NCBI GenBank assembly: GCA_022072055.1
Contig: JAJVIK010000009.1
Coordinates: 124,001 to 188,000 of the forward strand
DNA: 64,000 nt
Source of the DNA: a bacterium
Lineage (GTDB): Bacteria > Hinthialibacterota > Hinthialibacteria > OLB16
Direction of reading: 5' to 3'
The translations under genes and the position numbers were made by a program. The notes below the pieces were generated by a model. It did not search any database and had not been told where the DNA came from. It saw only the letters and a list, made by a program, of their open reading frames with translations. Below are positions 48,813 through 64,000 of the stretch, in pieces. Each line of letters begins with the position of its first letter. Positions within the stretch are counted from its first letter, which is position 1.

Positions 48813-50129
48813 TTACCGGACCCGCCCGAAATTCTCGAGGATCAGTCTCCGCTTGTCCGCGGGTTCCGGGGAGATCAGAAAGGCCTCTTCGGCGGACTCA
48901 ATGGCGGCATCGACTTTCGATTTCTCGCTGGTATGCAGGGTCACCAAGGTGTCCCCGCGCTCGACCTTGTCGCCGATCTTCTTGTGGACCCACAGGCCGA
49001 CACGGTGATCGGTGCTATCCCCGCGACGGATCCTGCTGCCGCCGAGCGCGAGCCAGGAATCCCCCAGCGCGGCGCCATCAATGGCTTTCAGATATCCGGA
49101 GCGCTGGGTGACCACATCGCGCCTGCCCTGCCCGCGGGGAAGCTGTTCGGGGTTGTCCAACGCTTGGCCATCCCCCCCTTGGTTGGTCACGAACTCCTTC
49201 AGCTTGGCCAAGGCGCGCCCATCGGCAATGGCCTCCTGGGCCAGGTTTCTCCCCTGGGCGTGATCCGCGACCAGCTGCCCGATCACCAAGAGCGAAGCCG
49301 CCAGATTGACCGCGACTTCCTTCACATCCGCGGGCCCTTCCCCCTTCAGCACCGCGATGGCCTCCTGCATTTCCAGGCTGTCACCGATGGCGTGCCCCAG
49401 TGGATTGTCCCGCTCGGTGATACAGCCCCCGATGCGGATACCGAGATTTTCCCCCACAGCGAAGAGATCATCCGCCAGGCTGTGGGCCTCGGCGAGGTTC
49501 TTGGCCAGTCCCCCGGAGCCGCAGGCGATCTCCACCACCAACCCCCGGGTTCCCGCAGCCGCCTTGCGCGCCAGCAGTCCCGCCACGGTGAGCGAAACCC
49601 CGCCCAAGGACCCGGTGTTGGCGCGCAGTTGGTTCACCCGGATCTCCGCGGGAGCCAAGTCCATGGTCTGCCCGATCACCGCGATTCCGGTCGAGCGCAC
49701 GGATTCCTGGAACTCGGCCAGGGACAGGTCGGTCCGGAATCCGGGCACCGCCTCGAACTTGTCCAGCAGTCCGCCGTTGTGACGAAGCGAGCGGTCGGCC
49801 ACCACCGGCAGCTTCACCCCATACACCGCCGCGGTGGGCAGCGCGATGATCGCCGCTTTGCCGCCGAGCCCGCCGGTCTCGCCAAGGTCGATCGGGGGGT
49901 AAGTGAATTCGTTGAAGCGCAGGGTCTGACCCGAACTGAGGAAGGCGCGCGCGAAGGAGGTGGTTTCCTGCTCATCCAACCCCCGGATGACCACCGCCAT
50001 CAGAAAGGCCGCCGCCTGCTCCACGGGGACCTCCTCGCGTTGGACCGCCTCGACAAACCCGGAGATCTCCTCGGGCTCAAGGGCCTCGCCCTCGCGTTTG
50101 CGTATGATCAGATCAATCCACTCGGCCAT
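48813..50129 (-). CDS. Divergent thymidine-phosphorylase-family protein
   Basis: 438 residues with the full phosphorylase II architecture: IDLIIRKREGEAL, GGLLDKFEAVPGF, VIGQTMDLAPAEIR, GHAIGDSLEMQEAIAVLKG and a C-terminal barrel-sandwich domain. However, compared with E. coli DeoA from memory, K84, H85, S86, S95, S113, T123, S186 and K190 are L, G, E, A, A, N, G and R; only R171 is kept. So the phosphate and pyrimidine sites are rebuilt. Either a different substrate or a non-enzymatic role is likely. Confidence 0.8.
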   Translation of the reverse strand: MAEWIDLIIRKREGEALEPEEISGFVEAVQREEVPVEQAAAFLMAVVIRGLDEQETTSFARAFLSSGQTLRFNEFTYPPIDLGETGGLGGKAAIIALPTAAVYGVKLPVVADRSLRHNGGLLDKFEAVPGFRTDLSLAEFQESVRSTGIAVIGQTMDLAPAEIRVNQLRANTGSLGGVSLTVAGLLARKAAAGTRGLVVEIACGSGGLAKNLAEAHSLADDLFAVGENLGIRIGGCITERDNPLGHAIGDSLEMQEAIAVLKGEGPADVKEVAVNLAASLLVIGQLVADHAQGRNLAQEAIADGRALAKLKEFVTNQGGDGQALDNPEQLPRGQGRRDVVTQRSGYLKAIDGAALGDSWLALGGSRIRRGDSTDHRVGLWVHKKIGDKVERGDTLVTLHTSEKSKVDAAIESAEEAFLISPEPADKRRLILENFGRVR

Positions 50130-50358
50130 TCCTGCATCCTTCCTCGGCTAGAAGCCACCCGATTTCGGTGAACACAAGATCCCTCTCCGGAGACCACCTC
50201 ATCCGGCAGTCTGGTAGGCAAGCATTCGCTTTCCGGGGAAGAGCGGTCCCAGACAAAACCTGCACCTGCGGCGCGCCACGGTCTGCGCCGTGACAACCCC
50301 TAGGATGGGATCTCATGGGAACCATAGCATGGAACCCGGTGAGCACAAAGGGTTTCCG

Positions 50359-50961
50359 TCACATCACTCGGGCAAGGTGGGCCTGAAGCTCCTCCATCGG
50401 CAACCCCACGATGTTACTCCAGGATCCATGAAATTTCTCGACAAAATTCGCGGCTCCCCCTTGAATCGCATAGGCCCCCGCCTTGTCCATCGGCTCCCCC
50501 GTCCGAACATAGGCCCAAATCTCCGCCTCAGAGAGCTTCCGGAACCACACCTCGCTGGTGACATGGAAAGTCTCGATCCGAACCGGGTGTGGACTTTCCC
50601 CCTGGGTCATCACCAGGGCACAGGCGGTGGTGACCCAATGCCGTTTCCCCGAAAGGGCGCTGAGGATTCTCGCCGCCTCTTCCTTACTCTCCGGCTTACC
50701 CAGGATCCGCTCGATCCCGTTATCCTGAGTCAAGACCACGATCGTGTCCGCGCCCAGCACCCACCGACCGGGATGGAGTTCAGCCACCTGCCAGGCTTTT
50801 TCTTTGGCGAGACGAAGAGCATAGTCGAGTGGCGCCTCCCCTTGAGAAAGCGACTCATCCACCCGCGCCGGGATCCCCTCGAACGCGATCCCCGCCTCAC
50901 GAAGGAGTTCGCGCCTTCTCGGTGAGGCGCTGGCCAGGATAAAGGAGGGGAGCGAACCCAT
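50359..50961 (-). CDS. maf: Maf-family nucleotide pyrophosphatase
   Basis: 200 residues. Hydrolyses non-canonical or standard NTPs (dTTP/UTP in the YhdE branch) and is linked to septum inhibition. Motifs: ILASASPRRRELLREAGI, VLGADTIV, GKPESKEEA and GAYAIQGGAANFVEKFHGSWSNIVGLP split across the C-terminal half. Standard length, ATG at 50959-50961. Confidence 0.95.
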   Translation of the reverse strand: MGSLPSFILASASPRRRELLREAGIAFEGIPARVDESLSQGEAPLDYALRLAKEKAWQVAELHPGRWVLGADTIVVLTQDNGIERILGKPESKEEAARILSALSGKRHWVTTACALVMTQGESPHPVRIETFHVTSEVWFRKLSEAEIWAYVRTGEPMDKAGAYAIQGGAANFVEKFHGSWSNIVGLPMEELQAHLARVM

Positions 50962-51128
50962 CTCGGAATCAGCGGGAATCCCGGCCGGGGTCCTTTTCCT
51001 GGAACCTGTGCGTGGTCGTCGCGGGCAATGGACTCATGGCTTTCATGGAGATTCCGAGGAGGATACACGCGTTCCCCGCCGGCGGGAATTGACACAGTGG
51101 CCGGTGCGGTTATATTGAGAATCCAGGC

Positions 51129-51215
51129 GCCGGAGTGGTGGAACTGGCAGACGCGCACGGTTCAGGTCCGTGTGGAGGAAACTCCGTGGAGGTTCGAGTC
51201 CTCTCTCCGGCACCA
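51129..51215 (+). tRNA. tRNA-Leu, anticodon CAG
   Basis: Acceptor GCCGGAG pairs with CTCCGGC; anticodon arm CACGG-TTCAGGT-CCGTG gives anticodon CAG (reads CUG). A long variable arm (GGAG-GAAA-CTCC) identifies a class II tRNA. T-arm GAGG-TTCGAGT-CCTC. The CCA end is encoded (51213-51215). The gene lies between maf and ftsK. Confidence 0.96.
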
Positions 51216-51229
51216 ACTCCTCCACAAAC

Positions 51230-53677
51230 TCAAACAATCACTTCCCTCGGCTTGCTCCCGCGCGAAGGTCCGATCAATCCCCGGTCGTGCATGATGTCCA
51301 GGATGCGCGCGGCGCGCCCATAGCCGATCTTCAGGCGCCGTTGGAGCAGCGAGGTCGAGGCTTGTCCGGCCTCCATCACAATGTCCACCGCCTGAAGATA
51401 CATGTCGTCCATCTCGCTCTCGTCATAGCCGCCCCCCTCGCCGCCGTCCTCCTCGGGCGAGAAATCAATGTCCAGATAATTCGGGGGCTGCTGCTCCTTG
51501 ATCACCGAGACAAGGCGCTCGATCTCGTGCGTGGACACATAGCACCCCTGCAGGCGCACCGGCTTCCCGGCCCCCCCCGGATCGAAGAGCATGTCCCCCA
51601 TCCCGATCAGGGATTCCGCCCCCTTCTGATCGATAATCACCCGCGAGTCGTTGATCTGCGCCACCTTGAAGGCAATCCGCGCCGGGAAGTTCGCCTTGAT
51701 CACCCCTGTGAGGATGTTGACCGAGGGACGCTGGGTGGCCAGGACCAGGTGCATCCCCACCGCGCGCGCCATCTGCGCGAGCCGCGCGATGTTGGTCTCG
51801 ACCTCCGCCTTGGCGACCATCATCAGGTCCGCGAGCTCATCGATGATGATCACGATGTACGGCAGAAAACCGGGAAGGGTCAGCTCCTCTTTCTTGCCCT
51901 CCTCCAGCGAACGCTGACTCCATTTGCGCATCCGCTCATTGTATTCGCGGATGTCACGCACCCCGGCCTTGGAGAGATACCGATAGCGGGTCTCCATCTC
52001 CTCGACGGCCCACTTGAGCGCCACCGCCGCCTGCTTGGGGTCATGCACCACCGGCGCGAGCAGGTGCGGGATGTCCTGATAGAGCGAGAGCTCCACCCGT
52101 TTCGGGTCCACCATCAGGAAGCGCACCTCCTGCGGGGTGGCGTTGAACAGGAACGAGGCGATCAGGCAATTGACCCCAACCGATTTCCCCGAACCGGTCG
52201 CGCCCGCCACCAGGAGGTGCGGCATCTTCGCCAAATCGGCCACGAACGGTTCCCCGGAAATGGTCTTCCCCAACGCGAAAGTGAGCCTTGAATCCAGCAG
52301 CCGATACTGTTGCGAGGCCAACACCTCGCGCAGCAGCACATCCTGACGCATCCGGTTGGGTATCTCGATCCCGACCACATTCTTGCCCGGAACCGGAGCG
52401 ATGATGCGGACCGAATAAGCTTGCAGCGCGAGCGCCAGGTCATCCTGAAGGTTGGTGATCCCTCGCACCTTGACCCCCGGCGCGGGCTTGAGGTCATAAC
52501 GAGTCACTACCGGACCGCAATGCACCTCCACCACCCGCGCGGAGATGTTGAACTGATCCAGGGTCATCTCCAAGATCTGGCGGTTGGTGTGGATTTCGTC
52601 CTTGTCCGGGCCATTGAAGGCCTGTGTTGGGAGGTCGAGCAGATCGAGGGAGGGGAGCCGATACGGGCGCTTTTCCTCACCGAACTGAACCACCGCCTCG
52701 GCTCGCTTGGCGACTGTTTTCTGTTTCTCCAGATCCTTGAGGGCGTAATGATCGGGGGTGAAAATCTTCGGCTCGGGGCGGGGTTCGTCGCACTCCTCTT
52801 CTTCTTCCGCAAGGTCCTCCTCGGATTCGACCTCCTCCGCGCCGGGAAACAGGTCGTCATCCACCTCGAACACCGGAACCTCACTGTCGCCCTCCTTCAG
52901 CCCCAAAGCGGGGAGGATTCCGCTGTCCTCATCCTCCAAGCTCAGCCCCCTCCGACGCGACCGGCTTGGCCGGATCGGCGCCGGCTCGAAAATATCCGAA
53001 ATCTCCTCGAAGTCCGCCTCCCAGGCGCGGCTCTCCCTCCACTCCTTGAGGCTCCTGCCCTTGTCCCGAAGCCAATAGAACAGATCGGCAAACAGGAAGT
53101 TGGTCGTCACGAGAAGGGTCAGCGCCGCCACGGTCGAGAGCACAATGTAGGCCCCCACTCGCCCGAAAAAGAGCATCGCGTGCGACAGCCACGATCCCAC
53201 CAAGCCCCCCGCGATCCAACTCGCGGTTTGGTGGCCATGCAGCGCGAGCGACACCAGGGCGCAGCAGCACGCCAGGAGGATCAAGCCTCCGATCAGACGA
53301 AGCATCGGGAGGAAGTGGTGCAGACGGTTCCTGGTGTTTTCCCGCCGGAACAGGGCATGCCACGCACACACCACAAGAAGCGGCGGCACCAGATAGGCGC
53401 AGATTCCGGTGAGGAAGAACAGCATCCAGGCCAACAGGCTTCCGGGATTCCCCATCCAGTTGGCGCTGGTGTCTTGTATGAGGGTCCGCCAGTTCTCGGT
53501 GTTCCCAATCGGGTACGAAATCAGGGACAAGAAAGTGGCCAGGGAGGCGGCTGTAAAGAGGATCCCCAGGACCTCGCGCTTGCGCTGGTCCTCCATCCCC
53601 TCCCAGACCTGCTGGATGGGGAGCGGCTCCCGGTAGGAGATCTGCTCCCGGTTCTTTTTCGGCGCTTTCCGGCTCAT
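51230..53677 (-). CDS. ftsK: DNA translocase FtsK/SpoIIIE
   Basis: 815 residues. Four to five N-terminal membrane helices (to about residue 195), an acidic linker (residues 250-300), then the motor: KNVVGIEIPN, Walker A GATGSGKSVGVNC, Walker B YIVIIIDELADLMM, and the C-terminal gamma winged helix (TSLLQRRLKIGYGRAARILD) that reads KOPS sites. Pumps DNA and activates XerCD at the septum. ATG at 53675-53677. Confidence 0.97.
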   Translation of the reverse strand: MSRKAPKKNREQISYREPLPIQQVWEGMEDQRKREVLGILFTAASLATFLSLISYPIGNTENWRTLIQDTSANWMGNPGSLLAWMLFFLTGICAYLVPPLLVVCAWHALFRRENTRNRLHHFLPMLRLIGGLILLACCCALVSLALHGHQTASWIAGGLVGSWLSHAMLFFGRVGAYIVLSTVAALTLLVTTNFLFADLFYWLRDKGRSLKEWRESRAWEADFEEISDIFEPAPIRPSRSRRRGLSLEDEDSGILPALGLKEGDSEVPVFEVDDDLFPGAEEVESEEDLAEEEEECDEPRPEPKIFTPDHYALKDLEKQKTVAKRAEAVVQFGEEKRPYRLPSLDLLDLPTQAFNGPDKDEIHTNRQILEMTLDQFNISARVVEVHCGPVVTRYDLKPAPGVKVRGITNLQDDLALALQAYSVRIIAPVPGKNVVGIEIPNRMRQDVLLREVLASQQYRLLDSRLTFALGKTISGEPFVADLAKMPHLLVAGATGSGKSVGVNCLIASFLFNATPQEVRFLMVDPKRVELSLYQDIPHLLAPVVHDPKQAAVALKWAVEEMETRYRYLSKAGVRDIREYNERMRKWSQRSLEEGKKEELTLPGFLPYIVIIIDELADLMMVAKAEVETNIARLAQMARAVGMHLVLATQRPSVNILTGVIKANFPARIAFKVAQINDSRVIIDQKGAESLIGMGDMLFDPGGAGKPVRLQGCYVSTHEIERLVSVIKEQQPPNYLDIDFSPEEDGGEGGGYDESEMDDMYLQAVDIVMEAGQASTSLLQRRLKIGYGRAARILDIMHDRGLIGPSRGSKPREVIV

Positions 53678-53892
53678 GCTCTCTCAATAGGCAAAAGGGG
53701 AGGGGTGGATGGGCTCCCCGCGCCCCGGCTCGGACGCGCCGATTTCCCATCCGGGAATTCCCCTTATCACTCCATTTTCGGCCTGGAGTTGAAGGACTGA
53801 ACGGGGGAATTCCGCCTTGCTTCGGATGCCCGCGAAACCCGGCCTTCCATGGTGGCTTTTCCGGTCGGATCAAGGCTATGCTGGGGGTTGAG

Positions 53893-55632
53893 ATGAAACG
53901 GAGAACTTTCCTCAAAACCCTTCCGGCCGTGCCGTTGTTCGCCGAGACCCGCCTGGGAGGCGCATCGCGGGGAGCCTACGGGAGCCAAACGACAGGCGGG
54001 GAGACTATCGGGCTGCGTGTGGAAGCGACCCCGGATCCGCTCCTTGCCAGGGTTGTGGCGATCCTCAAGGACCGGATCGAGCGGCGCTGCCCCTCGCGCG
54101 TGGCCGAAACGGATTCCGATGCGCGGATCCTCTTGACCGCGGATGACAGTCTTCCCCCCGAGGGCTTTCGAATCGAGGAGGCTGGAACAGCGGTTCGTGT
54201 GGCCGGCGGCTCGACGCGAGGGTTGCTCCATGGGGTCGGGAAGTTCCTCCGCACCTGCCGCTTTGAGGGTTCATTCCAGGCCTCTTCCTGGCGCGGGACT
54301 TCCGCGCCGCACGGGTCGCTGCGTGGGATGTATTTCGCCACCCATTTCCACAACTGGTACCAGGTGGCGCCCGAGGCGGAACTCGCTCGTTACATGGAGG
54401 ATGTCGCGCTCTGGGGTGTGAACGCCCTCATGGTCTGTTTTCCGTTCATCACCCTGCGGGATTGGGAGGACCCGGGGACCGAGGTGGCTCTTGCGATGAC
54501 GCGCAAATATGCGCGCTTGGCAAAAGACCTGGGACTCCAGTTCGGCATCGGAGTCGGCAACACCCTCTTCACCGGCGCTCCGGAGTCCATCCGAGCCACT
54601 CGCTTACCCGATCCGACTCGCAGGCGAGGGAACAGCGGCCACCCGATCTGCCCCAACATTCCCGAGGGTCGAACGTACATCCTGGAGAACACCCGACGGT
54701 TGTTCCAGGAACTCGCCGAGCCCGGCCTCGATTTTGTGGTTTCCTGGCCCTATGACGAAGGCGGATGCGCCTGCGAGAAGTGCCTGCCCTGGGGCAGCAA
54801 TGGCTTCTTGCGACTGTCGCGGGACGTGACCGTGCTCGGACGGGAGCATTTTCCCAAACTCAAGTTGATCCTCAGCACCTGGATGTTCGACACCCCTCCG
54901 GAAGGGGAGTGGCGGGGTCTATCTGAGGCTCTGGCCAAGGACCCCGGATGGGCGGATTACATCCTGGCGGACTCGCATGAGGAGTTCCCGCGATACCCCT
55001 TAGAGTCCGGGGTTCCGGGGAACCTCCCCCTGCTCAATTTCCCTGAGATCAGCATGTGGGGGAACTGGCCCTGGGGTGGGGTGGGCGCGAACCCGCTGCC
55101 GGCGCGCTTCGAGCGCCTGTGGAGGGATGTCAAGCAGGCGGTGCGCGGAGGCTTCCCCTACAGCGAGGGCATCTACGAGGACATGAACAAGGCGGTTGTG
55201 GTTCAGTTTTATTGGGACCCGGACCGCTCCGCGCGCTCGATTCTCGATGAGTATATCACCTACGAATTCGGGCCGGGTGTCGCGGAGGATTGCCACGCAC
55301 TGGTGGGGATGCTCGAAACCGCGGCGGGATTGTCTTACATGAAGCAGCCGGTCGATGCACGGGAGGCCGAACGCGCGTTCGAGCTGGCGGAGGGAATCCG
55401 GGGTCGTCTTCCGGAGTGGGCCAGACGTAACTGGCGCTGGGAGATCCTCCATCTGCGGGCGCTGCTGGACCGTGAACGCTTCGCCGGAGGCGGGCTGGAA
55501 ACCCCGGCGGCGCAGGCTGCCCTGACCCGCCTGGTGGAGATTTACCACTGCGAGAGGGTGACCGATGACCCCTACCACCACCGGGTCCGTCCGCCCCTAC
55601 GCGGCCTGTCAACCCGGGGCAAGGAGTTGTAG
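53893..55632 (+). CDS. Tat-exported hydrolase-like protein (GH20/GH67-type barrel)
   Basis: 579 residues from the ATG at 53893, chosen because it gives the Tat-like leader MKRRTFLKTLPAVPLF. Residues 35-130 resemble the GH20b/GH67 N-terminal alpha/beta domain (RILLTADDSLPPEGFRIEE...GLLHGVGKFLR). The rest looks like a TIM barrel: RGMYFATHFHNWYQ, WGVNALMVCFPF, SWPYDEGGCACEKC (possible catalytic Asp-Glu and Cys pair) and YSEGIYEDMNKAV. Glycosidase function is inferred; the substrate is unknown. Confidence 0.65.
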   Translation: MKRRTFLKTLPAVPLFAETRLGGASRGAYGSQTTGGETIGLRVEATPDPLLARVVAILKDRIERRCPSRVAETDSDARILLTADDSLPPEGFRIEEAGTAVRVAGGSTRGLLHGVGKFLRTCRFEGSFQASSWRGTSAPHGSLRGMYFATHFHNWYQVAPEAELARYMEDVALWGVNALMVCFPFITLRDWEDPGTEVALAMTRKYARLAKDLGLQFGIGVGNTLFTGAPESIRATRLPDPTRRRGNSGHPICPNIPEGRTYILENTRRLFQELAEPGLDFVVSWPYDEGGCACEKCLPWGSNGFLRLSRDVTVLGREHFPKLKLILSTWMFDTPPEGEWRGLSEALAKDPGWADYILADSHEEFPRYPLESGVPGNLPLLNFPEISMWGNWPWGGVGANPLPARFERLWRDVKQAVRGGFPYSEGIYEDMNKAVVVQFYWDPDRSARSILDEYITYEFGPGVAEDCHALVGMLETAAGLSYMKQPVDAREAERAFELAEGIRGRLPEWARRNWRWEILHLRALLDRERFAGGGLETPAAQAALTRLVEIYHCERVTDDPYHHRVRPPLRGLSTRGKEL

Positions 55633-55646
55633 AATTCACGGCCCCT

Positions 55647-55739
55647 TGGAGGGACGCATTCCATTGCGTCCCGACTGAAACCGTGACCCGACTGAGCGGG
55701 TCCCTCCATGCCTGCTGGAACGAGAATCCTTCTCGTTCC
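55647..55739. repeat. Cluster of three hairpins in an intergenic gap
   Basis: GGGACGCA/TGCGTCCC (55651-55658 with 55665-55672), GACCCG/CGGGTC (55685-55690 with 55697-55702), both bracketed by TGGAGGGAC/GTCCCTCCA (55647-55655 with 55700-55708), then GGAACGAGAA/TTCTCGTTCC (55717-55726 with 55730-55739). Not followed by a T-run. May be a dispersed palindromic (REP/MITE-like) element or a structured RNA. The remaining gap to 55905 holds no gene. Confidence 0.6.
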
Positions 55740-55905
55740 CACCACGCTCGGGGAGTCCCTTCCCCCGCATGCCGTGAATCGCGGAATGTCCTGTGGAATT
55801 GATAGGTTGCAGTGACTTCAGATACGTGTATTATGTGGCGGAAAGTCCCTGACCTGGCTTGTCCGGAATCCATCCAAGCGAGATCTAGGCCGACGAGGAG
55901 ACCCG

Positions 55906-56586
55906 ATGGCGAAGGCAACCCTGACCCTCAAGGACACGCTCAAGCAGCTCGAGGCGCTCGGCGATGAGAAGGTCCGCGCGCACAACAGGAAACATGGCGC
56001 TGGGGACAATCAGTTCGGGGTCCGCCTCGGGGACATCCGCAAGCTGGCCGCCAAGATCAAGATCAATCACCCCTTGGCGATCGCTCTTTGGGGCGCCGGG
56101 AACCTCGATGCCCGGCTCCTCGCGACCCTTCTGATCAAACCCGCGGAACTGTCTCGCGACGAGATGGACCGGATGGCGCGGACCGCCGGCGTTGCGCAGG
56201 TTGCGGATTGGCTGATGTCTTATGTGGTCAAGAGCCATCCCGACAAGGAGTCTCTTCGACAATCCTGGATGGAGGACAAGGACCCTTGGGCCGCCCGCGC
56301 CGGATGGAGCCTGACTTCCGAGCGAATCGGGAAGAATCCGGAGGGACTTGATCTTCCGGGGCTGCTCGACCGTATCGAGGCTGAGATGGGCAGTGCCGCG
56401 CCGGAGGTGCAGTGGACAATGAACTTCTGTCTTGCGGGCATCGGGATTCACTTCCCAAAGCATCGCAAGCGCGCCATCGCGATTGGAGAGAGACTGGGAG
56501 TCTACCGCGACTACCCGGTTTCCAAGGGCTGCACCTCTCCCTTCGCCCCGATCTGGATCAACGAAATGGTGCGCCGTCAAGGTTGA
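55906..56586 (+). CDS. AlkD-like DNA alkylation repair protein (HEAT-repeat)
   Basis: 226 residues. HEAT-like repeats typical of AlkC/AlkD: QFGVRLGDIRKLAAKIK, HPLAIALWGAGNLDARLLA, VADWLMSYVVKSH, WMEDKDPWAARAGWSLT, and the C-terminal KGCTSPFAPIWI. AlkD excises positively charged alkylated bases without flipping them. The aromatic/Asp cleft residues could not be placed confidently, so glycosylase activity is not proved. Stand-alone gene at the end of the core region. Confidence 0.8.
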   Translation: MAKATLTLKDTLKQLEALGDEKVRAHNRKHGAGDNQFGVRLGDIRKLAAKIKINHPLAIALWGAGNLDARLLATLLIKPAELSRDEMDRMARTAGVAQVADWLMSYVVKSHPDKESLRQSWMEDKDPWAARAGWSLTSERIGKNPEGLDLPGLLDRIEAEMGSAAPEVQWTMNFCLAGIGIHFPKHRKRAIAIGERLGVYRDYPVSKGCTSPFAPIWINEMVRRQG

Positions 56587-56724
56587 ACGTACGAGCCATC
56601 GGACACGAATTCAGGGACTATGTCCGCCTCTGTCCCAAAAGTGTGTGCTTCGCGCCAGTCTGGACACACCCAATCGGATGGAACTGGGATAGGATGCAAT
56701 GTGAAGATTGGAGGCAAGGCTTGA

Positions 56725-56979
56725 ATGAGTGTTCACGTTGCCCTTGAGATGCCCGAAGACGCCTTTTCGGCACTCCGAACCAACCCTGAGAATTTCGCCC
56801 GTGAGATGCGTCTCGCGGCCGCGGTGAGATGCTACGAACTTGGGATGATCTCTCAAGGGAAAGCGGCTGAGATCGCCGACCTGAGTCGTCAGGAATTCAT
56901 GTTGGCTTGCTCGCGTCTGGGGGTCTCCCCCTTTCAGACCAAGCCCGAGGAATTGGCCGAGGAATTCGCGCGTGAGTAG
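56725..56979 (+). CDS. UPF0175-family antitoxin
   Basis: 84 residues: MSVHVALEMPEDAFSAL, REMRLAAAVRCYELGMISQG, KAAEIADLSRQEFM and the tail LGVSPFQTKPEELAEEF. UPF0175 proteins are DNA-binding antitoxins usually encoded just before a DUF3368 PIN-domain toxin. That partner follows here but is truncated, so this is probably an orphan. Confidence 0.85.
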   Translation: MSVHVALEMPEDAFSALRTNPENFAREMRLAAAVRCYELGMISQGKAAEIADLSRQEFMLACSRLGVSPFQTKPEELAEEFARE

Positions 56980-57046
56980 GAGCTGGGTGGTCAACACTGC
57001 CCCGCTCATTGCATTGGCGAAAACCAATCACATTTGGGCTTTTTGA
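56972..57046 (+). pseudogene. Truncated DUF3368 PIN-domain toxin (24 codons)
   Basis: From a GTG overlapping the UPF0175 stop, the frame reads SRSWVVNTAPLIALAKTN, which is the N-terminal strand of DUF3368/PIN toxins (VVxTSPLI), then stops at TGA 57044-57046. Full-length relatives are about 150-160 residues. The break falls two bases from a tRNA 3' end, consistent with an insertion or deletion at an integration site. Confidence 0.7.
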
Positions 57047-57047
57047 A

Positions 57048-57092
57048 TGGCTGGGGAGCCAGGACTCGAACCTGGAAACTCCTGCTCCAAAG
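57048..57092 (-). other. 3' half of tRNA-Gln(TTG): attachment-site remnant
   Basis: On the minus strand: anticodon loop CTTTGGA (anticodon TTG), 3' stem GCAGG, T-arm CCAGG-TTCGAGT-CCTGG and acceptor CTCCCCAG-CCA, as in bacterial tRNA-Gln. The 5' half (TGGGGAG acceptor, D-arm) is missing; five extra bases (GGTGC) sit between a CCTGC and the anticodon loop. A 3' tRNA copy broken at the anticodon is the classic scar of tyrosine-recombinase integration. From its orientation the element should lie to the right. Confidence 0.7.
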
Positions 57093-57308
57093 GCACCGCA
57101 GGTAGCCTGTCGAACCGTGAAGAATCTCGGTTTTTCAGGGGTCTTTCAAACTCAAGGGGGGCTCAGGCCACGTTCAAACACCCCCAGAAGGGGGTCCTGA
57201 GGTGCAAAATGTGAAAGAAATGTGAACGGCAATTCTCCGAGCATGATCCGTTTGCGTCCAGGGTTGGCGTTGCCCTGGGAAGGTCGGACTTCGAGGATGA
57301 ATGGTCTT
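57093..57308. other. Gap at island edge, no gene seen
   Basis: About 216 bases between the tRNA remnant and the drmC stop. No convincing frame, integrase fragment or terminator was seen. It ends beside drmC and probably represents element flank. Confidence 0.5.
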
Positions 57309-58130
57309 CTAGGCGTTCCAAACGGGAACAAGGGTTCCGTCTCGGATCAGAAAAGAGAAATGCTCATCGACTCGCTTGGGGAGCTCTCCCCCCGATATGA
57401 CCACGCCCAGTTCAATGTTCAGGTCTAATGCAAATTCAGTCAGGTTCGCGCTCGATACATAGAGCGTGTGATTATCGGCGATCACGGCCTTTGCGTGCAG
57501 CGAACCGTGCTTGCCCTCAGGATCCTTCTCCCGCATATCAGCAGGCCAGACAAGAACCGTACAGGCCCGAGAGATCTCTTCTCCGAGACCTTCAATCATG
57601 TCAAAGGTTGTCTTTCCTCCGCTTGCATCAGCCGATTCAAGGATGATCCGGATTTGCACACCTCGATTGGCTGCCTGAATCAGCGCCTCCCGGATGGAGT
57701 CCACCTTGTAGACTGCGAAGCAAACCACCGTAAGTCTCTCCCTGGCTGAATGAATCAGCTGGAGCAGGACTTGTCGAGTTCGGCGGAAAGAGGTTTCTGA
57801 TGCGTGCGGCCCGGTCCAGACAATCTCTGTTGTCTGTGAGTCTTCGTGTCCCATCCCGGTCAAGCTCAGCGCTCTCAGTCCAAAGGCGATGGACTCGGGC
57901 GAGAGAGTATCCCGGTACTCTCTCCATTCTTCCAGGAAATCGTCCAGCAAATCTCTCCCCGCCGCATAGGGGATGACCGATAGAATCCTCGACCGGCTTG
58001 TTTGCCAATCACCCGTATCGAATTCCGCAATCCGATCGGAAAGACCATCCAGGACTTTGGGATGGAGGTGTCGAGCCAAAGCCAAGGCGGCTTGGATGAC
58101 TTCATTGTAAGCTCCAGAGTTGCATCCCAT
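57309..58130 (-). CDS. drmC: DISARM protein DrmC, phospholipase D-like
   Basis: 273 residues from the ATG at 58128-58130, overlapping the drmB stop (TGATG). PLD-fold: one HxKxxxxD motif, H212-K214-D219 in SLHAKAVIAD, followed by LYVSSANLTEFALDLNIELG. The N-terminal 100 residues are helical. DrmC is a core DISARM component but was reported as dispensable for defence. Identified by fold plus its position after drmA and drmB. Confidence 0.9.
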   Translation of the reverse strand: MGCNSGAYNEVIQAALALARHLHPKVLDGLSDRIAEFDTGDWQTSRSRILSVIPYAAGRDLLDDFLEEWREYRDTLSPESIAFGLRALSLTGMGHEDSQTTEIVWTGPHASETSFRRTRQVLLQLIHSARERLTVVCFAVYKVDSIREALIQAANRGVQIRIILESADASGGKTTFDMIEGLGEEISRACTVLVWPADMREKDPEGKHGSLHAKAVIADNHTLYVSSANLTEFALDLNIELGVVISGGELPKRVDEHFSFLIRDGTLVPVWNA

Positions 58131-60031
58131 CACAATTCCCCACCGCTGAAGAAGGCCGTCTCCGAGCGATTAAGAGTCTCAGCGAGAACAGATCGATCAA
58201 GATACCGGTTGCCGCATTCGCAGGATGTCTCGGACAGGAAGAGGCACGCATGACACGCAGCGGCATGGATAGTGTATCGGTCAGAGGCCGGATGGTGCTC
58301 TGAACAGAGCGGGTCAGACGAACACAATCGCGCTCTTTCAAGGGCTTGGGACAGATGAAGGATCAAGCTTGCGGCCCTGCCCAGACTGACCAGTCCGCCG
58401 AGAGTCCCCTCGCTGTCTGAGGCTACCGTGTAAATCAGCACACCCGCCATCGGACCCGATGGCTCCGTTGATTCTGCCGAGTAGATTCTCTCTCGGATGC
58501 TGGCTGAGGTGTATCCGCACTCCAACGAGAATTGGCGCATCAGGGCGTGGGCGAAAGAGTGGAGCAGGACGAATCGCATTCCCCGAAAGCCGGCTTCCGG
58601 GTGGTCGATATTTCGAGTCCGACGCCAGCGGCAGTGGCCCTGGAAGATTTCCTCCGAGAGCTCTCTCACGGCCTTCTTCTGGAGCCAGTCATGGAGCCTC
58701 GTTTCCGAGAATTGGATGAAGATTCCCTCTCCTCGAACCTCGGTTGCGGGAACCCACTTCGGATTGGTTCTTGAGAGCGGAGCTAGCCGCTGTATTTCGC
58801 CTTCTTCGTAGAGAGCGAAATCCTCCAGTGAATCGATTCGTGAAAAGCCTATGATGGACCGCACTTCCCGCATCTTCTCCACGAGGACGACTTTCTCTAT
58901 GAGGCCCTCAAAACCTCCGGGAACAGCAACCTGAGAAAGAACAAAATCTCGAGTAGATCTAACCTTGCCCGGATTCGAAAGGACCTCCCATTCAGGCGCC
59001 TTGATGTCTGCATCAGAGAAGCCTTGGTCTCCGAGTCGTGCACGGTAGTCTTGAATGGCCTTCAGAACTTCATGGTCTTCGAACTTCTTGAGGAGAGGGA
59101 TGGATTTCTTGATGTGCTTTATCTCGATGAGCTGTTCCACTTCGTTCAGATCGGCCCAGTTAAGAGCGATGATCTCGCCAATCTCGGAGATCGTTTGTGG
59201 AATCGAGATAGCTGAAACCACCGCCGGGAACCACGCGTTCGAGGCGCCCAATAGGAGGGTCTTCAATTGGTGGGGACCGCCATTGTCGCCGGTGCAACCT
59301 TCTTCCTGGGTGCTTCGCAGGTGGGGATGGCGTCCTTTGCAGTAGGGGAGGAACTGCTTGCCCTGCTCGCCAAACGCCGCCGACATTCTTCGACTTGATC
59401 CGCAATTGGTGCACTTGACCTGAACGTCAGCAGCCTCTCCCGAGACGCCGAACTCCTCCAAACGAAGCTGGGGTCTCTCGCATTTCTCCCCCCGGTGAAC
59501 AAAATCCACCCACGGGAAATCGTCCAGGTGTCCTGCCTCACAGGCAACCATGAAACGGACAGGGAGAACGGCCGGGGGCTTCTTTGCGCGGCAGTTTGTA
59601 TGGACGAATCTGCTTCTTTCGGGAGCAAAGGGTTTCGGGTCGAGATTAAATAGACCCGACGAAAGCGGCGCAAGGGTTTTGCAGACTGGGCAGACCATCC
59701 AACGTGGGAAGGGGGAGCATGGGACGCCGACAAGGTTCTCGTACCCCAGAGCATCGTTCCCAAACCCATTTCCTTCTTGGACGGCAGGTGGCATCAGGAG
59801 CTGCTCGACTTGGTCGCCCAGCCTCCGCTTAACTTGCGCCAAGAGCCGCTGTTCAGTGAGCACTGTGGAATGAGTCAGGTCCCACTCATCGAGCCCCATC
59901 ACCATCACCGAAAGGTTCGGCAGGTCGATGAGGGCGCCGACCCCTGAAGAATGCAGAAGCTGGGTTGGGCGGATCTCCCCAACCTTCTTGGCGAATCTGC
60001 TGCTCCCCCGCCTAGCCGAGTTACTCCGCAT
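58130..60031 (-). CDS. drmB: DISARM protein DrmB (DUF1998 domain)
   Basis: 633 residues from the ATG at 60029-60031, preceded by GGGAGGAGG; ATGs 15 and 18 bases earlier are possible. It overlaps the drmA stop by 11 bases. Four Cys clusters (C114/C117, C147, C164 in VACEAGHLDDFPW, C207/C210) suggest zinc binding. The DUF1998 segment near residues 495-560 includes MRFVLLHSFAHALMRQF. DrmB partners with the DrmA helicase to sense and block incoming DNA. Confidence 0.92.
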   Translation of the reverse strand: MRSNSARRGSSRFAKKVGEIRPTQLLHSSGVGALIDLPNLSVMVMGLDEWDLTHSTVLTEQRLLAQVKRRLGDQVEQLLMPPAVQEGNGFGNDALGYENLVGVPCSPFPRWMVCPVCKTLAPLSSGLFNLDPKPFAPERSRFVHTNCRAKKPPAVLPVRFMVACEAGHLDDFPWVDFVHRGEKCERPQLRLEEFGVSGEAADVQVKCTNCGSSRRMSAAFGEQGKQFLPYCKGRHPHLRSTQEEGCTGDNGGPHQLKTLLLGASNAWFPAVVSAISIPQTISEIGEIIALNWADLNEVEQLIEIKHIKKSIPLLKKFEDHEVLKAIQDYRARLGDQGFSDADIKAPEWEVLSNPGKVRSTRDFVLSQVAVPGGFEGLIEKVVLVEKMREVRSIIGFSRIDSLEDFALYEEGEIQRLAPLSRTNPKWVPATEVRGEGIFIQFSETRLHDWLQKKAVRELSEEIFQGHCRWRRTRNIDHPEAGFRGMRFVLLHSFAHALMRQFSLECGYTSASIRERIYSAESTEPSGPMAGVLIYTVASDSEGTLGGLVSLGRAASLILHLSQALERARLCSSDPLCSEHHPASDRYTIHAAACHACLFLSETSCECGNRYLDRSVLAETLNRSETAFFSGGEL

Positions 60032-63000
60032 CGCCTCCTCCCTCATCAACTAAAACCAGATTCACGGGAGGCTCAACTTCTCTGAGGGAGGTCAGGCAGG
60101 TGAATTCATCCCACGGCCGGGTTTCGGGCCTGGATAGAAGTCCGATGGTCCGTGAATCCTTGACTGGCTCGTAGCCCAAGGCGGAGTGGCCTTCCTTGGC
60201 CTTATGAGCGCGGTTTTCCCATTCGTCCAGCTTCTTATTGATTTGATCTCTGATGGCTGTTTTGACGTCAGCCCCTCCCAAGATCGAGTGCGCGCGGTCC
60301 GGTATCATTTCCAAACATCTTGAGATGTTGTCGTGAGGTCGTTTGAGGGACTCACATCTGTTGTTTGCGTTGAAGTCCAGCCCATGATTCCTGATGTACC
60401 CGACGAGCACGCCGCTCAAACCACGCTGAATAGCCCCTTCGGAAAAAGGAGTAACGGAAAGCGCTTCGACATGCTTATAGAACGTGGCGTGGTAGTGCTC
60501 GAAAGTCTCATAGTGCGAGAGGTCTCGCGGCCGGGCCCAATTATAGACGGTGCACACGAGCCCCGGAAAGCTACGACCTACGCGGCTGGTAGCCTGGATG
60601 TACTCGGCGGAGGTTTTCGGCTGGCTGGAAACCACCATCAGGCCCAAGCGTTTCACGTCCACCCCTACAGAAACCATGTTCGTCGCCAGGAGAACATCGA
60701 TCGGTTTTGAGCCCGAGGCTGGGAATGCAAGCTCCAGGCGATCCAGTATGGTAGGAATGTCTGTCGCCCTGATCCGGGAGGTCAGCTCTTCAAGGGTAAA
60801 CTCGGTGATAGTCCGGTCTGCAAGCCCACGATCCTTCGTATCGCGCAGGCGGGATCGCATGTCATCAAGGACCAACCTCCGGGCGCCTCCGAGGTCTCGC
60901 AGCGAGTTGAAGTAACCTACCAGTGTCATCCACGGATCAGCCCTCTCGCCGAACTGCTCAAACAGCTTCTGGGCCGCGGCGAGATGCGCGACAAAGACAC
61001 GAATCAGAGCCGCTTTGATTCTTCTCCCCGGGGCGCAGACGCCGATGTATCGCCGCCCAGGGTGTTGCTCGCCGGGGGGACGCTGGAGAGCGAAGAAGTT
61101 ATTCTCTATGCCCAGTCCGGTTGGGGGAAAGATCTGTACAGACCTGGAAAACAGAGCGTTTACCTGGTCGAGAGCGCGCCGGATGGTGGCTGTCGATGCG
61201 ATCACCTTCGGCTGGACCTTCTTTCCTTCCAGATCCCATTCGCAAAGAGAGTCAATAGCGGTCTCATAGAGTCCCACGAGGCTCCCCAAAGGGCCGCTGA
61301 TGAGATGCAGCTCATCCTGGATAATCAGGTCGGGAGGACGAAGGGGTGATGCAGGAATTGTCTTCGCTGATGGAAGCCTTCCCTTGGCGGGGTGGGAGTT
61401 TGAATCTTCGATCTCGGGGGACCGGAAGCCATGGCGCTCGCAGTAACCGTTGACCTGGCCAAAAAGCATCTGGGTTTCGCCCTTCCATGGGAGCTGGGCG
61501 AACTTATCCACGGTGGCGATCAGGAGGGCAGGCAAGAGGCGGTAGATTTCTTCATCCACGACCAGCACTGGAAGGCCTTCGTCGGGCGAATTCAATCGGC
61601 TGAAAGGACAGCTCCCGAGCTGGTCTCCACAATAGATTAGAGTCCTTCCGCGTCCAGCGTTGAATGGCTCCACCGTGATGTCTCGCTCCGGTTTGATCTC
61701 ATGCCCACACCAAGGGCAGTTGGTCAGCTGCGCGGGGGCACCCATTCCGCCAACCGGCCCTTGGCCCCGATGGAGTTTGACCGCCTCATCACTTTGCTCG
61801 GTGGTGTTGGGCGTGGTCCGGTATCCCACCCACAGGCCGATACGGAAGGGCGTCCTGCCCCACCGCTCATCGCCGTTGCTTAGCGCCTCTCTGCGGATCA
61901 TCTCGCAGGCGCACATCAACGCGGATGCGCGTTGAAACTGTTGGAGAGTCAGGAGCCTGAGCGTGTAGCGCATCAAGACCGCGACCCCGTGCTCTCCATC
62001 AAGCCCTCCCATCAAACCTTGGAGGCGGCGGATGGCCATGGCGAAAGCGGTCAGACCCAGGTACGCCTCGGTCTTGCCGCCTCCGGTGGGAAACCAGAGG
62101 AGATCGGCGACTTTGTCTCGGTCCTCATGGAGGGGATCCGAGAGCGAGGGGATGTTCAACAGAATGAAGGCGAGCTGGAAAGGACGCCACGAGCGGTTTG
62201 CCGGAACGTCGATGCTCTCCAACGCAACCCTATTTCCACGGCGAATCTGTTCGGAGAACAGGGAATGGACGCGCTGGAGGGCCATGGCCCGGTTCATGAA
62301 CCGGAAAGCCTCTAAAGGTTTCTCATCCTCCCGGCAGAGAGTCTCAATACCCGCCTCGATGCGCTTCAAAGCCAGCTCGCAAGCTTCCAGCGCCAGTTGA
62401 GCCGGAGTTCGGTAGTCCGCAAGCCCTTCTGATGGGTCCTTGATCTTCTTCCTTTCGGTCTCGATCCATTCGCGATAGGCCGCTGTCAGCGGATCGAGGC
62501 AGGCTCTGACATCTTTCTTCTCGATCCTCGAGAGAGTCTCCATGTCCAAGACCAAACTGTTGAGTCCGGGAATATCGGCGACTGTGGGCTGATCGGTAAA
62601 CGGAACTTCATAAGCGGGGATGACAGCGGTGCGGATGCGTAGCGCCCGCTGTGTTTCTCTTTCCGGAAGGTCGGCGTGCACGCTGACTCCATGGCCGACA
62701 GCGAACTCGACATGGCGGCGATAGAGCATTTCATTGCGCTGGTCCTCAACGCTATCAAGGAGTTTGAGGAGATGCAGTGGAGGGGCTTTCTTGCGAAAGA
62801 TGGGTTGGCCATCCGGCGACTCGACCGCCAGCTCCGGCTGGAACAGCCAAACCTCATCGCTGTTGCGCTTCTTCGGCTGTTGGTTGTTGACCAGGAAGAG
62901 GGTGACTGTCCAGGAGTCATCTCTCTTTCGGACTCGCCCCGTAACGATCACGTCAGGTTGCTGGTTCGAGGGTATCCAGGCGGGCAAGGGGCCCTCTGCA

Positions 63001-63512
63001 AGCCGGATCGGGGGGGAAGTCCCTTCTATCGGGGAGCGTTTCCAAACCCGTTTGGGTTCGCCCTTCTCATCGACCAGGATTTCACTGACCTCTCGGCGGT
63101 AGCGGCCCCATCGGGCGGTGACCTGGATGTCCTTGGCGGAAGGGTCCACGCAGAATGTCAGGCCGAAGGAAGAGGCGAAAAGGTTGCTTCCCTGGGTGAG
63201 TTCGGGCTCTGTGTGTCCCTCTTCGGAAGAGTCGCCTTCGCTGGTCCCAAGCGCATCATACACGACAGGGGGAAAGATTTCCTCTCCGGCTTCTCTCCCT
63301 GGTATGACATCAACCCCGTCCTCGTTTTCTCTGCCTTTGCGCGGGGCGAGCATGCCCACCAGGTAACGGTCTCGAACGCTCCGCTCGGCGATCTCTTCCG
63401 TCAGCCCGCCAGCGGGACCGAGGAGGTCTTTGATGACCATCTCTTCGAGCTCAGACCGGAGCTCGGAGTGGGACTTGGTTCTTTCAGCGAGGAGGGGAGT
63501 CTTCTCGTTCAT
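60021..63512 (-). CDS. drmA: DISARM helicase DrmA
   Basis: 1163 residues from the ATG at 63510-63512 (a GTG at 63527 is possible). SF2 helicase motifs: Walker A FPTGGGKTEAY (about 475-484), DELH (733-736), STAT (773-776), VSVGVDVKRLGLM and QATSRVGRSFPGL (973-985). A Cys cluster CPWC...YCGDQLGSC lies at 599-635. Large N-terminal region of 450 residues without enzyme motifs. DrmA translocates on DNA and with DrmB forms the core anti-phage complex. No cognate methyltransferase is seen in the window. Confidence 0.93.
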   Translation of the reverse strand: MNEKTPLLAERTKSHSELRSELEEMVIKDLLGPAGGLTEEIAERSVRDRYLVGMLAPRKGRENEDGVDVIPGREAGEEIFPPVVYDALGTSEGDSSEEGHTEPELTQGSNLFASSFGLTFCVDPSAKDIQVTARWGRYRREVSEILVDEKGEPKRVWKRSPIEGTSPPIRLAEGPLPAWIPSNQQPDVIVTGRVRKRDDSWTVTLFLVNNQQPKKRNSDEVWLFQPELAVESPDGQPIFRKKAPPLHLLKLLDSVEDQRNEMLYRRHVEFAVGHGVSVHADLPERETQRALRIRTAVIPAYEVPFTDQPTVADIPGLNSLVLDMETLSRIEKKDVRACLDPLTAAYREWIETERKKIKDPSEGLADYRTPAQLALEACELALKRIEAGIETLCREDEKPLEAFRFMNRAMALQRVHSLFSEQIRRGNRVALESIDVPANRSWRPFQLAFILLNIPSLSDPLHEDRDKVADLLWFPTGGGKTEAYLGLTAFAMAIRRLQGLMGGLDGEHGVAVLMRYTLRLLTLQQFQRASALMCACEMIRREALSNGDERWGRTPFRIGLWVGYRTTPNTTEQSDEAVKLHRGQGPVGGMGAPAQLTNCPWCGHEIKPERDITVEPFNAGRGRTLIYCGDQLGSCPFSRLNSPDEGLPVLVVDEEIYRLLPALLIATVDKFAQLPWKGETQMLFGQVNGYCERHGFRSPEIEDSNSHPAKGRLPSAKTIPASPLRPPDLIIQDELHLISGPLGSLVGLYETAIDSLCEWDLEGKKVQPKVIASTATIRRALDQVNALFSRSVQIFPPTGLGIENNFFALQRPPGEQHPGRRYIGVCAPGRRIKAALIRVFVAHLAAAQKLFEQFGERADPWMTLVGYFNSLRDLGGARRLVLDDMRSRLRDTKDRGLADRTITEFTLEELTSRIRATDIPTILDRLELAFPASGSKPIDVLLATNMVSVGVDVKRLGLMVVSSQPKTSAEYIQATSRVGRSFPGLVCTVYNWARPRDLSHYETFEHYHATFYKHVEALSVTPFSEGAIQRGLSGVLVGYIRNHGLDFNANNRCESLKRPHDNISRCLEMIPDRAHSILGGADVKTAIRDQINKKLDEWENRAHKAKEGHSALGYEPVKDSRTIGLLSRPETRPWDEFTCLTSLREVEPPVNLVLVDEGGGDAE

Positions 63513-63527
63513 GGGTTCTGCCCACAC

Positions 63528-63596
63528 TCAAAGTTCGTCAAGCACTCTTTGAAACTCCTCCGGCGTCATTTCGATCTCACGGAGGATTTCGCGCAT
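63528..63596 (-). pseudogene. Possible HicA C-terminal remnant
   Basis: A short frame, LMREILREIEMTPEEFQRVL, ending at 63528 just before drmA. It resembles the HicA C-terminal pattern (TLRxILRxAGIxxEEF). The frame runs back, overlapping HicB, without a credible start or the HicA His motif, so this is at best a fragment. Weak assignment. Confidence 0.3.
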
Positions 63597-63607
63597 GAGG
63601 GGGCGGG

Positions 63608-63835
63608 TCAAAGATTCACCGCAATCTTTTGGATTCCAACGAAGGTGTCTTCCGCCACTGCATCGCCGTGGGCTTCCATCTCCTCCAGGCAGAGTTCGAC
63701 AACTTCGCGCAGGTTGGATTGAAGTTCATCGAGGCTTGCCGCCTGGGTGTGGGCGCCAGGCACTGAGGGGATGTTGCCGACATACAGGCCGGTCTCGGAA
63801 TCGTACTCCATGTAGGCGGTGAAAGTCTTTGTCAT
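63608..63835 (-). CDS. HicB-family antitoxin
   Basis: 75 residues from the ATG at 63833-63835 with GGAGG eleven bases upstream. HicB partial RNase-H-like fold: TAYMEYDSETGLYVGNIP, SVPGAHTQAASLDELQSNLREVVELCLEEM. HicB proteins neutralise HicA mRNA interferases. No intact hicA is adjacent. It separates drmA from whatever lies upstream. Confidence 0.85.
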   Translation of the reverse strand: MTKTFTAYMEYDSETGLYVGNIPSVPGAHTQAASLDELQSNLREVVELCLEEMEAHGDAVAEDTFVGIQKIAVNL

Positions 63836-63868
63836 TGGACGATCTTCCTCCATCGTTCGGGGTCTACC

Positions 63869-64000
63869 TTACCACAAACCTTCACACCATTGTGCCGGGA
63901 GGGCGGGGTCGAAGGGGCGGTCATACCGGTAGGGTGTCCCACGGAGCGGGAATCGGCCTTGGGTGCGCGACCCGTCTGGGGCGGTTTTCACAATGACCTC
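63869..64000 (-). CDS. C-terminal end of an unidentified gene, cut by window edge
   Basis: An open frame enters from the right edge and stops at TAA (63869-63871), giving 43 residues ending RYDRPFDPALPAQWCEGLW. G/C at third positions supports coding. No family recognised. Because DISARM methyltransferase genes often sit upstream of drmA on the same strand, this could be part of that locus, but nothing in the sequence shows it. Confidence 0.45.
   Translation of the reverse strand, partial: EVIVKTAPDGSRTQGRFPLRGTPYRYDRPFDPALPAQWCEGLW

Follow-up and report, generated by a model that had tools for sequence, protein, structure and literature searches.

Class 1 DISARM systems combine the core genes drmA, drmB and drmC with drmD, which encodes an SNF2-like helicase, and drmMI, which encodes an adenine methylase; class 2 systems carry drmE and the cytosine methylase gene drmMII. 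As used here, these definitions draw on general knowledge, on the names of profile models and on two publications (PMC9142583, PMC12458937). A YprA-like helicase is common to ARMADA, Dpd, Druantia and the locus described here, and ARMADA also has an SNF2-like helicase and a PglX-like methylase in common with it. Within the YprA family, it is the presence of consistently separate drmA and drmB genes that marks DISARM (PMC12458937). This is the arrangement found here, unlike in ARMADA, Dpd and Druantia, and DrmC is present too. The N-terminal domain of class 1 DrmA is EVE-like and a predicted reader of modified bases (PMC12458937). A class 1 DISARM has been described from Serratia sp. SCBI, together with its DrmAB complex (PDB 7s9v and 7s9w; PMC9142583). 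When compared to the PDB, DrmA and DrmB of the present locus each have one match, to this same complex, with 1109 bits for DrmA (7s9v_A) and 556.6 bits for DrmB (7s9v_B), nearly full length in both cases. Both operons include an adenine methylase. They differ in that the Serratia operon also has a cytosine methylase (PMC9142583), of which there is none in the operon here, and in that Serratia DrmA is longer (1325 aa versus 1168 aa).

The locus described here lies at the right-hand edge of the window, that is, the whole stretch of 64,000 nucleotides that was analysed (G000:C10:124001-188000). The contig reaches 215,288 bp and thus continues beyond this edge. Positions past it are given in the coordinates of the extended locus, L003, in which position p corresponds to window position 55999 + p. 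The following features make up the locus:

57309..58133, minus strand: drmC, PLD-family protein, 274 aa (NF038319, DISARM_DrmC_I, 212.9 bits, cut-off 133)
58130..60049, minus strand: drmB, MZB/DUF1998 protein, 639 aa (NF038324, DrmB_fam, 677.8 bits, cut-off 240)
60021..63527, minus strand: drmA, YprA-type SF2 helicase, 1168 aa (NF038325, DISARM_DrmAS, 1397.5 bits, cut-off 950)
63608..63853, minus strand: HicB-like antitoxin ORF, 81 aa (weak Pfam matches to UPF0150, HicB_lk_antitox and DUF1902; only the last exceeds its cut-off)
63869..64000, minus strand: ORF of 72 aa and of no family, cut by the edge (ORF call; whole at L003:7870-8088, reaching 87 bp beyond the edge)
L003:8545-12726 (G000:C10:188544-192725), minus strand: drmMI, 1393 aa (PADLOC DrmMI, 1778.5 bits, residues 13-1385)
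L003:12719-15958 (G000:C10:192718-195957), minus strand: drmD, SNF2-like helicase, 1079 aa (NF038317, 1342.2 bits, cut-off 610)

A preliminary description, made from the window alone, had recognised a DISARM core in the three overlapping minus-strand genes at 57309-63512, and position, strand and order were all correct. The profile search that it proposed places DrmA, DrmB and DrmC above the NCBIfam cut-offs, and the PADLOC models for the three proteins agree with these calls (237 bits for DrmC). The start of drmA is a GTG at 63527, with an alternative in-frame ATG five codons further in, at 63512, the position given in that description. Overlaps are 4 bp between drmC and drmB and 29 bp between drmB and drmA, which adjoin as separate genes. 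The motifs that had been read from the translations, those of an SF2 helicase, DUF1998 and a PLD protein with a single HKD, are likewise borne out by the Pfam domains Helicase_C, MZB (formerly DUF1998) and PLDc_2. In DrmA, the Walker A motif FPTGGGKT is present, as are DELH and SRVGR, in agreement with homologues; the alignment with other loci shows that Walker A FPTGGGKTEAYLG, DELH, SVGVD and SRVGR are kept. DrmC has a single HxK(x)4D motif, which also agrees with homologues.

Within the window, no methylase of the DISARM operon is found (positions 50000-64000). Two explanations had been offered for this. Either the methylase lies past the right edge, beyond a HicB gene, or the locus is a methylase-free variant with some other means of protecting self DNA. 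Extending the contig to the right, as had been suggested, decides for the first. In the 8 kb past the edge, the rest of the small ORFs is followed by drmMI and then by drmD, on the same strand as drmABC, and the HicB-like ORF is the one inside the window at 63608-63853. The window ends ∼544 bp short of drmMI, so the apparent lack of a methylase comes from an edge that cuts the operon before this gene. DrmMI is full length, contains the Pfam domains Eco57I, MmeI_Mtase and MmeI_TRD, and has intact CGSGAF and NPPF motifs in the alignment, and drmD adjoins it with an overlap of 8 bp. The methylase-free variant is ruled out by this extension, and we give it practically no credence: what spoke for it was the lack of a methylase at 50000-64000, and drmMI and drmD stand directly upstream. 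The practical lesson is that a methylase absent at the edge of a window must be looked for on the contig before any methylase-free variant is put forward.

The complete order is drmD-drmMI-drmA-drmB-drmC, with 1016 bp and two small ORFs between drmMI and drmA and all genes on the minus strand, which is the ordinary class 1 layout. A drmD-methylase pair directly upstream had been named beforehand as the outcome that would turn this into an ordinary class 1 locus, and apart from the two small ORFs it is what the contig shows. We are almost certain that this is a class 1 DISARM anti-phage operon which is complete on the contig and is truncated only by the edge of the window, since the contig continues with drmMI and drmD in class 1 order, since DrmD, DrmA, DrmB and DrmC all exceed curated NCBIfam cut-offs, and since DrmMI matches its PADLOC model end to end. 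The class 2 markers drmE and drmMII are absent among the operon proteins searched with PADLOC and NCBIfam. Nothing speaks against the class 1 assignment, and the caveats concern function only. This is a known system and one further intact class 1 DISARM operon, and nothing at the locus departs from the published picture. For a phylum that is sparsely sampled (14 genomes in the comparison collection), it adds an intact operon of this class.

A search for related loci with DrmA yielded only two, and the comparison was therefore built on plasmid records. The same five-gene order is found on plasmids annotated by NCBI as DISARM in Deinococcus, Microvirga, Planktothrix, Rhodococcus and Nocardia. 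It recurs in two genomes, one a betaproteobacterial MAG (L040) and the other from the class to which the host belongs (G006; L042). The highest identities in the set, for the best aligned segment, are 59% for DrmD, 59% for DrmMI, 57% for DrmA, 51% for DrmB and 39% for DrmC. The closest plasmid relatives are the class 1 systems of Oscillatoria PCC 7112 and Planktothrix (DrmD 58-59%, DrmA 55-56% identical), which share the gene order and in which small genes also fill the junction between drmMI and drmA. The locus of the same-class genome is similarly close (DrmD 58%, DrmMI 59%, DrmA 56%).

The methylase contains ∼28 extra in-frame residues (SPPAPLPRGEGGDGSPLRPVGEGGLGG) at about residues 879-906, ∼10 residues before NPPF, which are absent at this point from most homologues. 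The DNA of this insert has a palindromic 23-bp inverted-repeat core, for which the 5.86-Mb genome has only three further sites when mismatches are allowed. The insert could alter the activity of DrmMI. One might go further and suppose that the enzyme is inactivated, in which case the class 1 operon would work without methylation or not at all. We regard this as highly improbable, given that the reading frame, CGSGAF and NPPF are all kept and that Oscillatoria and Planktothrix carry extra, though shorter, sequence at the same spot before NPPF, so that this loop seems to tolerate insertions. Repetitive in-frame inserts in DrmMI were observed in three lineages, and they are unrelated to one another: in Planktothrix (L051, L054, L064) a different one, VIPQTPTVILSETKDL...RDSSQAQND, follows NPPF, and in the same-class genome (L042:4068-8411) yet another reads VGWDEATNPT...GGYRYRSTHPT. 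Judging from these sequences, DrmMI seems to accommodate insertions of repeats that keep the reading frame.

The mechanism proposed for the operon is taken from its relatives (PMC9142583); what the present sequence shows is which genes there are and in what order, that they are intact and keep their catalytic motifs, and that DrmA and DrmB are homologous to the solved DrmAB complex. By analogy, DrmMI would most likely methylate the adenine of a specific sequence motif in the host chromosome. The DrmA-DrmB complex would load on incoming DNA that is unmethylated and has a single-stranded 5' end, and would then be freed from its trigger loop and translocate. DrmD and DrmC would presumably assist.

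The junction between drmMI and drmA (L003:7529-8544, 1016 bp, from window position 63528 to 543 bp past the edge) is occupied by the HicB-like ORF and the 72-aa ORF. The latter, which is single-copy in the genome, matches no family in PADLOC, Pfam or NCBIfam. For the HicB-like ORF no toxin partner is recognised, nor is any complete toxin-antitoxin (TA) pair in the window. A gap of 1.0 kb may mean that the operon is divided into two transcription units. The content of this junction was compared across the 22 class 1 loci that have both drmMI and drmA, a small and mostly plasmid-borne sample whose counts ignore phylogeny. A junction was called filled when extra sequence of >300 bp, with genes in it, was present, a threshold that was chosen after the data were seen. 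By this measure the drmMI-drmA junction is filled in 14/22 loci (L003, L042, L048, L050, L051, L054, L056, L058, L059, L060, L063, L064, L066, L067), as compared to 7 for drmD-drmMI, 0/21 for drmA-drmB and 0/14 for drmB-drmC. An apparent 353 bp in L049 was not counted: DrmA has a longer N-terminus there, and the annotated genes overlap. The difference between drmMI-drmA and drmA-drmB gives p = 5.6e-6 in Fisher's test (4.5e-5 if the three Planktothrix loci are counted as one), and that between drmMI-drmA and drmD-drmMI only p = 0.07.

In the class 1 loci compared, the cargo of the drmMI-drmA junction is frequently TA-like. As an example, in the same-class genome (L042) the junction differs from that here in being 3.8 kb long and holding a ParE-like toxin pair and an HTH-IrrE/PIN-like pair. 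Different cargo is also found in the closest plasmid relatives, with XisI/XisH in Oscillatoria and a DUF2281-like/PIN pair in Planktothrix. Synechocystis has VapC with a DUF2281 protein as well as a nucleotidyltransferase/DUF86 pair, Acidibrevibacterium and Methylocystis have HTH-IrrE with a 171-aa partner, and Thiodictyon has MqsA with a SecB-like protein. Cargo other than TA genes includes a GIY-YIG protein in L054, an ATPase and an O-methyltransferase in L050, an ATPase and a weakly DUF4435-like protein in L058, and genes of unknown kind in L066 and L067. Between L042 and L059, the HTH-IrrE proteins show weak similarity, and no alignment was obtained for their small partner genes; the partners in L059 and L060 are 67% identical.

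The simplest reading of these data is that there are two sub-operons, drmD-drmMI and drmA-drmB-drmC, whose join tolerates insertions, and this fits Pseudanabaena, where the whole drmA-drmB-drmC block has the opposite orientation with respect to drmD-drmMI. The block inversion, the 1.0-kb junction here and the contrast of 14/22 filled junctions with 0/21 for drmA-drmB could also be taken to mean that two functionally separate units have been joined, with the small ORFs as an independent TA passenger. This is quite improbable: in several phyla all five genes are kept together in the same order, and in some class 1 loci overlapping genes close the junction. For these same reasons, the five genes most likely act as one system. 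It is also unlikely that the junction, instead of being just an insertion point tolerated between two transcription units, is a recurrent, functionally used slot for small TA or other accessory modules which protect the operon or make the cell dependent on it. Since plasmids and defence islands are rich in TA genes anyway, since the sample is small, mostly plasmid-borne and uncorrected for phylogeny, and since no complete TA pair is recognisable here, the junction pattern is to be seen as a lead that falls short of a finding. The lead is a modest one, open to testing, and concerns the way in which DISARM operons acquire accessory genes. We found no publication whose title or abstract treats TA genes inside DISARM operons, the text itself having been searched in PMC12458937 only.

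It is worth noting some of the surrounding genes. Directly upstream of drmD, past the right edge, is an ORF of 320 aa (L003:16069-17031), which was considered as a new DISARM component and rejected. It is without a family match in PADLOC, Pfam and NCBIfam, and none of the class 1 loci compared carries it. Homologues of its protein with 35-42% identity are found in two same-class genomes, where no DISARM genes lie near them in the stretches examined (L045-L047), and weak ones on plasmids of rhizobia and Acinetobacter, where the annotation is hypothetical or SEC-C protein; none of these homologues was seen with DISARM. Further upstream of the DISARM locus are Rhs-like (YD-repeat) ORFs (L003:17056-20000), apparently partial tandem copies. 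Just downstream of the operon, at 56725-56979 on the plus strand, is a UPF0175 gene (PDC-S70 in PADLOC), for which no partner gene was recognised. Elsewhere in the genome there is a second MZB-domain ORF (835 aa; G000:C3:188506-188742; L001, L005), possibly a housekeeping helicase of the MrfA type.
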